Shown here one piece after another: positions 48,335-51,568 of a stretch of DNA of 64,000 bases (positions within the stretch are counted from its first letter, which is position 1; each line of letters begins with the position of its first letter). Origin of the DNA: Streptomyces tailanensis (GTDB lineage Bacteria > Actinomycetota > Actinomycetes > Streptomycetales > Streptomycetaceae). The notes under the pieces are model-generated. The model did not search any database. It saw only the letters and a list, made by a program, of their open reading frames with translations, and had not been told where the DNA came from. Both the position numbers and the translations under genes were made by a program. The stretch covers positions 1 through 64,000 of the forward strand of contig NZ_VTHJ01000035.1 of assembly GCF_008386495.1 (NCBI RefSeq), written 5' to 3'.

Positions 48335-48674
48335 GGGCGGCCCCTCTCTGTCGGTGTCCGGTCGGTCTCCGGTACGGCTGCCGGCCAGTGACTGCTCAGT
48401 ATCCGAGTCGATGTCCGGCAGGCCCGATCGTACGAATTGCCCGTTACGCCGATGTCACATGGCCTGATCATGAGGGGTTACGCCCGCCACACACGGCCCG
48501 GCGGGGAGCTGTGAGGGCGGGAACCAGTCGATGTACCGGCCGATCTACCGGCCCATGTGGCGGCCGATGTGACAGGTGAGGGTGTCGCGGTCCGTGTCGC
48601 TGTTGGGCCGAACGGGTGACCATGCGTAAGAATTGGCCGATGCAGTCAGTCAGTGCGAGCCAGGGGGAAGGCCG
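48335..48674. other. 340-base divergent promoter region, nasA and SepF-like genes
   Basis: The region separates the nitrate reductase fusion (minus) from the SepF-like gene (plus). It contains the GlnR-like site described separately and the ribosome site GGGGGAAGG before the plus-strand gene. No additional coding frame is convincing. Confidence 0.6.
48443..48458 (-). promoter_or_regulatory. GlnR-box-like site upstream of nasA
   Basis: Read toward nasA the sequence is GTGAC-n6-GTAAC, close to the actinobacterial GlnR half-site pair gTnAC-n6-GaAAC, 109 bases before the GTG. A second GTAAC begins about 20 bases further upstream. GlnR activates nitrate assimilation genes in Streptomyces under nitrogen limitation, which fits. 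Confidence 0.55.
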
Positions 48675-49073
48675 GTGAACAGGGTGAACAGCCACGATGT
48701 CACCGACGAACAGTGGGAGGGGCTCGCTCAGGTCGTGCCGCTGCGGGGCCGGGACGCATGGCCGTCCGCGGTCGGCCACCGGGCCATACCGGAGGCCGAG
48801 ACCGAGGCCAGACGCCGTTTCGTCGTCCTGCGCGTCAATGTCTTCGCGGACGCCCGCGAGGTCGCCGAGACGCTGATGGCGGGCGTTCCGGTGCTCCTCG
48901 ACCTGTCCGGCGCGGAGACGGACGTCGCCAAGCGCGTACTGGACTTCAGTACGGGTGTCGTCTTCGGACTCGCCAGCGGAATGCACCGCGTCGACCGGAA
49001 CGTGTTCCTCCTCACACCGCCGGGAACCGAGGTGCGAGGGCTGATGGAGGGGGCGGGGGTGCCGGGGGTGTGA
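48675..49073 (+). CDS. SepF-family protein (132 aa)
   Basis: This protein is of the SepF fold, whose founding member anchors FtsZ filaments to the membrane. Its core is RRFVVLRVNVFADAREVAET, VPVLLDLSGAETDVAKRVLD and FSTGVVFGLASGMHRVDRNV, ending FLLTPPGTEVRG. The N-terminal amphipathic membrane helix of true division SepF is not evident; it starts MNRVNSHDVTDEQWEGLAQV instead. Streptomyces carry several SepF paralogues, and this is probably one of the SepF-like ones rather than the gene beside ftsZ. Confidence 0.82.
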   Translation: MNRVNSHDVTDEQWEGLAQVVPLRGRDAWPSAVGHRAIPEAETEARRRFVVLRVNVFADAREVAETLMAGVPVLLDLSGAETDVAKRVLDFSTGVVFGLASGMHRVDRNVFLLTPPGTEVRGLMEGAGVPGV

Positions 49074-49181: not shown

Positions 49182-50456
49182 ATGACCGCGTCACCCCTGT
49201 CACCGGCGCCACCCTTGTCATCGGCGTCGCCCTTGTCGCCGACGTCACTGACGCCACCGGCATCGCCGTCGTCGTCGCCGCCGTCGGTGCGCGACGAGCA
49301 GCGCGTCGCCGAAGTGCGCCCGGACCGGCCCGGCGTCACCGAACTGCGGCTCTCCGCCTTCGCCGGGCACCGCGGTGCCGTCCTCCCGCTGGGGCCGCTG
49401 ACCCTGCTTGCGGGGCACAGCGGCAGCGGCAAGTCGACCGCGCTCCGGGCGTACGAGGCGCTGGCGCGGCTCGGCGGTGGCGCCCGGCTCGGCGAGGCGT
49501 TCCGGGACCCGGCGGGCTGTGTGCCCGAGCGGGCCCGCCCGGACGCCCAGCGGCGACGCGGCTTCCGTATCGGCTGCACCACCGACGGCCCCGAGGGACC
49601 GGTACGACTCGACGTCGCCGTCCAGGCCGAGCCCGAACTCCGCATCGTGGGCGAGCGGTTGACGGCAGGCGGGCTCACCCTGCTGCAGACGGCACTGGTC
49701 GACCCGTCCCGCCCCGTCGTCCAGGCATCCTGGCACACGGCGGGCTCGACCCCTGTCACCCGTGGCCCCCTCCCCGACGACCGGCTCGGCACCGTCCTGC
49801 TCCCGCTGCGCGTCGCGGGCCGGACGGACGGCCAGCGGCGGGTGCTCGCCGCCGCCGAGCAGACGGTGGTCGCGCTGCGCTCGGTCTTCGCCTGCGACCC
49901 TCGCCCCGGCCGCATGCGCGAGGCCGTACCCCTCGGCTCCGGACGGCTCCTGCCGGGCTGCGACAACCTCGCCGACGTGCTGTGGCGTACGCGGACGGAG
50001 TGCGGCCGCCGCCACGCGCAACTCGTCGCGGCGGTCCGGGACGGCTGCGCGGGCCCGGTGGCGGACCTGCTTGCCGAACCACTGCGGGACGGCCTGGTAC
50101 GGGATGGTCTGGTGCGGGCGGTGCTGGACCGGGGTGACGGCGTACGGACGGCCCTCGGCCTGCTCGGCGACGGCGAGTTGAGGTATCTGGCGCTGGCCCT
50201 GGTGCTGTTCACCGGGCCCGGGGTGCTGGAGGTCGACCCGGTCGCGGAAGTACCGGCGGCCCTGCAGACCCTCACGGTTCTCGCCGACGGTTTCGACCGC
50301 TCCCTGGACCCCCGCCAGGCGCTGGAGTTGGTGCGGCTGGCGGCCCGGATGTGCGGGCGCGGCCATATCCGGCTGGTGGGCGCGGTGAGTGACGCGTCCT
50401 GGGCCACCGGGGTGCCAGGGGCGATGGTGGTACACCTGAACCGTGAAAGATCCTGA
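49182..50456 (+). CDS. AAA/ABC-type ATP-binding protein (424 aa)
   Basis: The first 35 residues are a Ser/Pro/Leu repeat from a degenerate DNA tandem repeat. They are followed by a P-loop NTPase with Walker A LLAGHSGSGKSTALRAYEAL near residue 80 and a C-terminal GDGELRYLALALVLFTGPGV, resembling the signature/Walker B part of SMC-like or AAA_21 ATPases, then TVLADGFDRSLDPRQALELV. The end overlaps the MazG-like gene by 14 bases. It is conserved in Streptomyces; the role is unknown. Confidence 0.72.
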   Translation: MTASPLSPAPPLSSASPLSPTSLTPPASPSSSPPSVRDEQRVAEVRPDRPGVTELRLSAFAGHRGAVLPLGPLTLLAGHSGSGKSTALRAYEALARLGGGARLGEAFRDPAGCVPERARPDAQRRRGFRIGCTTDGPEGPVRLDVAVQAEPELRIVGERLTAGGLTLLQTALVDPSRPVVQASWHTAGSTPVTRGPLPDDRLGTVLLPLRVAGRTDGQRRVLAAAEQTVVALRSVFACDPRPGRMREAVPLGSGRLLPGCDNLADVLWRTRTECGRRHAQLVAAVRDGCAGPVADLLAEPLRDGLVRDGLVRAVLDRGDGVRTALGLLGDGELRYLALALVLFTGPGVLEVDPVAEVPAALQTLTVLADGFDRSLDPRQALELVRLAARMCGRGHIRLVGAVSDASWATGVPGAMVVHLNRERS

Positions 50457-50805
50457 ATCCGCGGGGAAACCGGACCTGCCGGCACTCCAGCGCCGACTCG
50501 CCGAGTTCGCCGCCGCGCGTCACTGGCAGCCGTACCACACCCCCAAAAACCTCGTCTCGGCCCTCAGTGTCGAGGCCGCCGAACTCGTCGAGATCTTCCA
50601 GTGGTTGACGCCGGGGGAGTCGTCCCGCGTGATGGAGGACCAGGCGACGGCCGCCAGGGTGACGGACGAAGTCGCCGACGTCCTCGCCTACTTGCTCCAG
50701 CTCTGCGAAGTCCTCGGCATCGATCCACTGTCGGCGCTGGATGCGAAGATCGACCGCAACGAGCGGAGATTTCCGGCGCCGGGGCGCCATGACGACAAGC
50801 CCTGA
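50443..50805 (+). CDS. MazG-like nucleotide pyrophosphohydrolase
   Basis: This 120-aa protein is of the all-alpha NTP-PPase superfamily (MazG/RS21-C6 type). Metal-binding acidic motifs are SVEAAELVEIFQWL (ExxE) and VTDEVADVLAYLLQLCEVLG (ExxD). Such house-cleaning enzymes hydrolyse non-canonical dNTPs such as modified dCTP. The GTG start overlaps the ATPase gene. The last codons are built from the first units of the 13-bp tandem repeat. Confidence 0.86.
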   Translation: MKDPESAGKPDLPALQRRLAEFAAARHWQPYHTPKNLVSALSVEAAELVEIFQWLTPGESSRVMEDQATAARVTDEVADVLAYLLQLCEVLGIDPLSALDAKIDRNERRFPAPGRHDDKP

Positions 50806-50915
50806 CGACGCGCCATGACGACGTGCCATGACGACGTGCCATGACGACGTGCCATGACGACGTGCCATGACGACGCGCCATGACGACGCGCCATGACGAC
50901 GCGCCTTGACGATGA
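50786..50915 (+). repeat. 13-bp tandem repeat, ten units
   Basis: Ten head-to-tail units of GCCATGACGACGT (with C or T last, and variant first two and final units) run without gaps. The array begins inside the last codons of the MazG-like gene and ends about 40 bases before the DnaA boxes. The unit length is not a multiple of three, so copy-number change would shift frames if translated past the stop. Confidence 0.95.
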
Positions 50916-50953
50916 GGACACCAATCCACTTGTCACTCTCCGGAGTTGAAAAG

Positions 50954-50980
50954 TTGTCCACAGTCGACTTGTTATCCACA
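50954..50980 (+). promoter_or_regulatory. Two DnaA boxes
   Basis: TTGTCCACA (50954-50962), the form favoured in Streptomyces oriC, and TTATCCACA (50972-50980), the perfect classical DnaA box, lie in the same orientation with starts 18 bases apart. This is a non-coding, relatively A/T-rich spot far from any visible dnaA or dnaN gene. They could titrate DnaA or regulate the 51092 gene. Confidence 0.75.
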
Positions 50981-51091
50981 GATTTCAGGCTTCCTCTGGC
51001 TTTCTGTCTCACCGACCCTCACTGTGGGTAATGGACAGACAAGAGTTCGGGCGGACGTGTGAGAGCGCGTCGGGACAGTCGGGAGCAGCGC

Positions 51092-51568
51092 ATGGATGCG
51101 GTGCGGCTTATCTTGGCGAGCAGGCGTGCTCTGGCGGGCACCGTCGAAGGGCCTCGGATCATGGCGGAGGCGTGGCAGGCGTACGCCCTCGCCCAGGCGA
51201 TCGGCAGCCGCCTCGCCGTCTCGGGCCCACCCGAACTGCGCGGCGAGGCCCTGGGGTTGACCGAGCTGGCCGGCAGCGGCTGCGGCATACTCGGCGCCCC
51301 GCCCCTCGGCGTAGGCGATTTACGTGCCGCCCAGCTCACCGAGTTGGGCGACGCCCACGACTCCCTCGACCGCCTCGGCGCTCTCCTCGGCGAGGTCGGC
51401 ATCGCCCTCGTCGGCCTCGCCAGCGCGGCCGACGACGAAGCGACCTACTGGCAGTGCATGGAGGCCATCGACGCGGCGGACGAGGCCCGCGACCGAGTCC
51501 TGGAAATGATCCGCAGACTGGCAGCAAGAGACAAGGTCCTGTCAGAACGGGACGCGTCACCGGGCTGA
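51092..51568 (+). CDS. Conserved Streptomyces protein, DUF6099-like (158 aa)
   Basis: This helical protein starts MDAVRLILASRRALAGTVEG, with IMAEAWQAYALAQAIGSRLA, AAQLTELGDAHDSLDRLGAL and ATYWQCMEAIDAADEARDRV. The ATG at 51092 follows GGGAGC; a GTG at 51059 is also in frame. It resembles DUF6099 proteins by eye. No catalytic motif was seen. It lies 111 bases after the DnaA boxes, which sit in its promoter region. Confidence 0.68.
   Translation: MDAVRLILASRRALAGTVEGPRIMAEAWQAYALAQAIGSRLAVSGPPELRGEALGLTELAGSGCGILGAPPLGVGDLRAAQLTELGDAHDSLDRLGALLGEVGIALVGLASAADDEATYWQCMEAIDAADEARDRVLEMIRRLAARDKVLSERDASPG

Follow-up and report, generated by a model that had tools for sequence, protein, structure and literature searches.

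Organization of the locus

The analysis was performed on a window of 64,000 nucleotides, located on contig C113 of a Streptomyces genome (G000) that comprises 10.0 Mb in 183 contigs. The nearest named relatives at the locus are S. ipomoeae, S. stelliscabiei, S. torulosus, S. caniscabiei and others. The features of the region, in order of position, are as follows:

50443-50805, + strand: MazG-like gene (Pfam PF12643, 9.6e-13), the upstream neighbour of the conserved module
50784-50912: 13-bp tandem array, 9.9 copies with 92% matches, outside the module
50933-50948: op1, palindrome of the TCACT-N6-AGTGA type; TCACTCTCCGGAGTTG in the window, with 3 of 5 arm pairs
50954-50962, + strand: box 1, TTGTCCACA, of the form TTRTCCACA
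50972-50980, + strand: box 2, TTATCCACA, of the form TTRTCCACA, overlapping the start of the core
50973-51005, + strand: core, TRTCC..AGATTTC.G..TTCCYCTGGCTTTT, defined by alignment columns and starting inside box 2
51019-51034: op2, second palindrome of the TCACT-N6-AGTGA type; TCACTGTGGGTAATGG in the window, with 3 of 5 arm pairs
51092-51568, + strand: DUF6099 gene (Pfam PF19594, 3.6e-63), the likely target of the module

An initial annotation of the window had placed a pair of DnaA boxes in a non-coding gap beside a MazG-like gene and a 13-bp repeat array. This description holds: the Pfam match lies upstream of the gap, the next gene lies downstream of it, and the array was recovered by repeat analysis. 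The downstream boundary depends on the start of the DUF6099 gene. The program-listed ORF (51059-51568) opens at a GTG codon at 51059, while its Pfam match runs from residue 12 and the protein alignment of the family (35 sequences) starts at the ATG at 51092. Judged by this homology, the listed start is too early and translation of DUF6099 is predicted to begin at ATG 51092; because the Pfam match and the family alignment agree on this start, positions 50806-51091 were taken as non-coding. Downstream of op2, the leader of DUF6099 (51040-51091) can form hairpins according to a folding prediction.

Of 126 relatives, 107 have a MazG-type C-terminal motif upstream of DUF6099 (30/30 where 700 nt of upstream DNA were examined, and 77/96 where 330 nt were examined). 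MazG-like genes are common in this upstream position, and the one in the window is not likely to be the target of the module; it was rejected as such on its upstream position and because it stops before the module begins. The 13-bp array starts within the 3′-terminal part of the MazG-like gene and has the appearance of expanded final codons of that gene. A few genes further upstream, an ORF (48633-49073) encodes a SepF-like cell-division protein (PF04472, 1.7e-18).

The pair of DnaA boxes

Box 1 and box 2 both fit the DnaA-box consensus of the genus, and in PMC4285127 TTGTCCACA is given as the high-affinity DnaA box of S. coelicolor. Both 9-mers were confirmed at the positions and in the common orientation originally assigned to them, and the distance of 18 bases in the initial annotation is correct as a start-to-start distance, with 9 bases between the boxes. 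Boxes of the host repertoire are thus found here in non-coding DNA upstream of a gene. A third, weaker match (TTACCCACA, 51023-51031, - strand, one mismatch) is part of op2.

In the 10.0-Mb genome, TTRTCCACA occurs 83 times and the reversed control pattern 30 times. At this density, 0.010 pairs on the same strand with 0-29 bases between the boxes are expected in the genome, and 4 were seen; the control pattern formed no such pair. The view that two such 9-mers are unlikely to meet by chance is borne out by these numbers. In the eight nearest relatives, box 2 was exact in all eight, while box 1 was exact in only one, had one mismatch in three and was gone in four. Absence of the boxes from close relatives, which the initial annotation had named as evidence against its proposal, was therefore not observed for box 2 and was observed in part for box 1. 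The poor record of box 1 in these relatives is what could be said for a chance co-occurrence of the two 9-mers; given the excess of pairs over expectation and the recurrence of the same offset in distant species, we regard chance as extremely improbable.

Of 121 Streptomyces genomes searched, 69 contain TTRTCCACA-N10-TRTCCACA, and the control gave no match. Only 5 of the 30 pairs with the 18-bp spacing that were retrieved lie at DUF6099 and 25 lie elsewhere, so that such pairs are spread more widely in the genus than this one locus.

A conserved module upstream of DUF6099

The first alignment was built from the upstream DNA of the best 80 relatives, with one masked row dropped. The genus alignment comprised 127 copies of the DUF6099 gene, obtained by even sampling across the order. 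In the latter, a block of about 100 bp, from 50933 to approximately 51035, is conserved upstream of DUF6099 and carries a TCACT-N6-AGTGA-type palindrome at either end. All 5 arm pairs of op1 are present in 52/127 copies, and its commonest form is TCACTCTTCGGAGTGA (34/127). At op2, 5/5 arm pairs are present in 40/127 copies and 4 pairs in 71/127, with TCACTCTGGGTAGTGA and TCACTCTGGGTAGTGG tied as the commonest forms (38/127 each). The two palindromes lie 86 bp apart, start to start, in 116 of the 127 copies. The module, its conservation, its fixed geometry and its place before DUF6099 are established. That the boxes are embedded in this larger unit had gone unnoticed in the initial annotation.

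The core is a possible promoter or protein site, judging from the alignment. A pattern made from its columns 50973-51000, with at most three mismatches, matched once in each of 48 genomes out of 61 and not at all in 13, and the control had 0 matches in the 61; these are genome-wide counts, taken regardless of where the match lies. For TCACTCTNNGNAGTGA, 51 matches were found across 38/61 genomes, with none for the control, and 27 of the 30 loci retrieved with it are at DUF6099; the genome under study holds no exact copy of TCACTCTNNGNAGTGA. A scan for the sigma-70 consensus, which is blind to other promoter types, found 0 promoters at the module. An ordinary sigma-70 promoter was set aside on this result and on the single copy of the core.

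In two divergent Streptomyces (L243 and L244), both palindromes are kept and the boxes are unrecognisable, as would be expected if the module had started from its palindromes. A third divergent locus (L248) shows the opposite, with TTTTCCACA and TTATCCACC present and the palindromes unrecognisable.

The palindromes were also compared with known operators. TCACTCNNNNNRGTGA occurs 7-35 times per genome (palindromes being counted on both strands) and its reversed control 0-5 times; by eye, the neighbours at 20 retrieved places are mixed genes, so that the arms name no regulator, and assignment to a known operator family was abandoned. The portions of the literature on XRE and WhiJ regulators that were consulted contained no such operator letters. 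A regulon of op2 was rejected as well, since the 15-mer TCACTSTGGGTARTG with two mismatches allowed gave 15 matches in the genome under study and 23 for the control. Within that genome, only op2 itself matches at 0 mismatches, and there is no match at 1.

Another candidate for this region is BldD, the c-di-GMP-dependent developmental repressor, in which case the DnaA boxes would be incidental. The BldD box is given as TNAC-N5-GTNA in PMC4151990, and op2 of the window fits it (TCACTGTGGGTAA) as BldD targets do. However, an exact fit is found in only 30/127 copies at op2 and 3/127 at op1, and the shared palindrome TCACT-N6-AGTGA is centred elsewhere than the BldD box. BldD was set aside as the main explanation on the missing fit of op1 and the different dyad centre, and we consider it unlikely that the module is a BldD target.

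Conservation of the boxes across the genus

The two boxes are conserved to different degrees. Against TTRTCCACA, box 2 is exact in 35/127 copies and within one mismatch in 107/127, and box 1 is exact in 20/127 and within one mismatch in 46/127. Both boxes are within one mismatch in 41/127 copies, and at least one is exact in 53/127. No other + strand offset in the 127 copies carries a box, even with one mismatch, and the spacing between the boxes is 18 in 124 of the 127 aligned rows. Box 1 is recognisable (at most two mismatches) in 57/127 rows and unrecognisable in 70/127. The first alignment had given the impression that box 1 is a novelty of this clade, and this was overturned by the genus sample.

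Binding by DnaA was compared with the possibility that no DnaA is involved, in which another protein or RNA polymerase would occupy the stretch from TRTCC to CTGGCTTTT. The 5′ edge of the core would then spell a DnaA box by coincidence, and box 1 would be a second, weaker half-site, directly repeated 18 bp upstream. The pattern of conservation at box 2 speaks for this possibility: T50973, T50975, C50976 and C50977 are invariant or nearly so (125-127 of the 127 copies) and conservation runs on through 50986, while box 2 position 7 is kept in 98/127 and position 8 in 106/127. Because conservation crosses box 2 and extends into the core, with variation at positions 7 and 8 of the box, this is the strongest rival to DnaA binding, and another protein could explain such conservation. 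Box 1, which lies outside the core, is harder to account for in this way. In the 57 rows selected as recognisable, T4, C6 and C8 are kept in 57/57, with variation mostly at positions 1-3 and less at 5 and 7, and the commonest form of box 1 is TTATCCACA (15/127), the same 9-mer as box 2 of the window.

The boxes in Streptomyces origins were used as a yardstick. The 596 one-mismatch boxes collected from 50 Streptomyces oriCs always have C at position 6, and have A (565) or C (31) but never G at position 7. The forms of box 2 that are usual beside box 1, GTGTCCACA and CTGTCCACA, have 32 and 28 uses in the 50 oriCs. When an oriC-type box is defined as a 9-mer seen at least twice in these oriCs, plus the two consensus forms, the module carries two oriC-type boxes in 35/127 genomes, one in 60/127 and neither in 32/127; at least one is present in 95/127. 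In 22 genomes box 2 is TTGTCCGCA or TTGTCCGAA, which are absent from the oriC-type set, and position 7 of box 2 is G in 28/127. The S. violaceoruber locus (L078) carries TTGTCCGAA as its box 2.

A second yardstick was the gap between pheA and serS in the same genome (L004; G000:C164:17549-20570; genes identified by eye), which holds 3 exact boxes and was aligned over the most similar 30 of 55 matching genomes. One of its boxes is invariant in 30/30 and a second in 26/26 (4 gapped); TTGTCCCCA varies at one position in 2/30, and the outermost box is looser. By this comparison, the box pair of the module is under less tight constraint than the two invariant pheA-serS boxes. Two points speak against DnaA as the constant function of the module: box 2 tolerates a G7 that is absent from the oriC boxes, and two of the pheA-serS boxes are invariant, which the module boxes are not. 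The pheA-serS comparison, together with the 32 genomes without an oriC-type box, also counts in favour of a site without DnaA. On balance, we regard such a site as a serious but doubtful explanation.

A7 of box 2 is present in 57/57 rows with box 1 and in 41/70 rows without it (Fisher p 2e-9, with kinship disregarded). When 110 rows were placed on a gene tree, just 4 independent pairs were usable, which is too few to tell, and shared descent may therefore explain the association. Co-loss of the boxes was accordingly not accepted as proof of function, since the p value ignores kinship.

On the - strand, TTACCCACA overlaps op2 in 18/127 rows, and TTGTCCACT lies over the right arm of op2 in 15/127, 3 of these 15 having a recognisable box 1. 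In these 15 rows the right arm of op2 (at 51030-51038) runs into AGTGGACAA, an inverted DnaA box with one mismatch. A turnover of boxes is possible at this place.

Titration of DnaA, an unlikely role

The initial annotation had also suggested that the pair could titrate DnaA, and it might serve as a reservoir in the manner of datA or of the Streptomyces clusters near oriC. Its boxes are perfect, close-set and non-coding, and lie away from oriC, as do the boxes of these clusters, which are reported as analogues of datA in PMC10950094. This role is nevertheless very unlikely. The pair offers two exact boxes, short of the three or more looked for in a titration site, with neither box of oriC type in 32/127 genomes and box 1 recognisable in 57/127 the boxes are not strictly conserved, and the boxes lie within a conserved gene-control block. 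Moreover, the locus is 1.94-2.54 Mb from oriC in 15 relatives; nearness to oriC is a property that we take to be typical of the Streptomyces titration clusters. The proposal of titration was therefore not upheld.

In the genome under study, the box pair and oriC are on different contigs. Its box clusters include the pheA-serS gap described above and a rhomboid-crgA gap with 4 exact boxes (L003; G000:C118:90662-93683; genes identified by eye). The rhomboid-crgA and pheA-serS clusters are presumably the known H69 and D78 clusters, respectively; compared with the 4 and 3 exact boxes of these likely counterparts, the pair has 2. Streptomyces DnaA-box clusters H69, H24 and D78 near oriC were reportedly described by Smulczyk-Krawczyszyn et al. 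in 2006.

A proposed accessory DnaA input to DUF6099 control

The explanation that we favour, to which we give slightly less than an even chance, is that DUF6099 is controlled by a cis-regulatory module found across the genus, to which the DnaA-box pair contributes an accessory input. Both TCACT-N6-AGTGA elements, whose separation of 86 bp corresponds to about eight helical turns, would be bound by a dimeric regulator. DnaA would bind the direct box pair between the palindromes, next to or over the promoter, which the core is predicted to be. We infer that DnaA binding modulates DUF6099 transcription with the replication state, and likewise the sign of this effect. In lineages that lack box 1 and have G7 in box 2, the module persists but has probably lost its DnaA input.

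The pair may thus tune DUF6099 rather than soak up DnaA. Coupling of transcription to replication, the other role raised in the initial annotation, may apply here. A DnaA input is plausible in this genome and in part of the genus, but it is not what keeps the module. Against such an input, the module stays although 32/127 copies are without an oriC-type box and box 1 is unrecognisable in 70/127. The G7 of box 2, the imperfect palindromes of the window, the lack of an exact TCACTCTNNGNAGTGA in this genome, the pairs of equal spacing at other loci and the negative sigma-70 scan also count against this explanation.

According to PMC8203912, DnaA works as a transcription factor in bacteria outside this genus, and in S. 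lividans it does so on dnaA. As in the DnaA-regulated promoters described there (dnaA autoregulation in S. lividans), the boxes lie in non-coding DNA directly upstream of a gene. Unlike in those promoters, the boxes at DUF6099 sit between two palindromes and are missing from some lineages of the genus, and DnaA binding to them and its effect are predictions. PMC3411110, PMC13121528, PMC12565409, PMC10364602 and PMC10294661 were also consulted. Among the papers listed in a literature search on Streptomyces and DnaA ChIP, no study of the DUF6099 locus was seen.

Because the boxes persist in only some lineages, species that have them and species that lack them form a natural experiment on whether DnaA regulates transcription there. 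Streptomyces grow as multigenomic hyphae. The uncharacterised DUF6099 gene also gains a likely regulatory context.

DUF6099 and a similar element in oriC

The sample contained 132 Streptomyces genomes, the one under study among them, of which 127 yielded DUF6099, and 15 genomes from other genera of the order, of which 0 did. Within this sampling, the gene is Streptomyces-restricted. Its protein is confidently modelled as a helical bundle (mean pLDDT 88.5). A structure search of the PDB with this model returned nothing at E 0.001, and the weak matches (best from E 0.11, mostly Dps/ferritin-like) were left unused. In the literature collection searched, no paper mentions DUF6099.

The oriC of the genome under study lies at G000:C118:62694-63181, and in one of the loci retrieved oriC was seen by eye between dnaN and dnaA. 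The Streptomyces oriCs share their box repertoire with the module, and their spacer carries an element whose 16-bp frame is that of op1 and op2. They differ in having many boxes, with 11 within one mismatch in 1.1 kb of the oriC of this genome. The spacer element reads TTTCACTC-N4-CGGTGA, and TCACTC-N5-RGTGA is present in 47 of 50 oriCs.

It is conceivable, although fairly unlikely, that DUF6099 is a Streptomyces-specific replication-control effector whose expression is governed by the proteins that act at oriC, namely DnaA and a dimeric protein binding TCACT-N6-RGTGA in the oriC spacer and at both edges of the module. If this were true, the module would be a promoter-sized copy of the oriC logic that links replication initiation to DUF6099. 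A protein shared by oriC and the module is offered as a hypothesis only, because the looser pattern occurs 7-35 times per genome beside mixed genes. The full TCACT-N6-AGTGA palindrome is present in the oriC spacer of 7/50 oriCs. TTCAC-N8-GTGA is present in 5/5 oriCs of the Streptomyces without DUF6099, and a comparison with 8 loci of other genera, whose similarity is partial, did not reveal it there.
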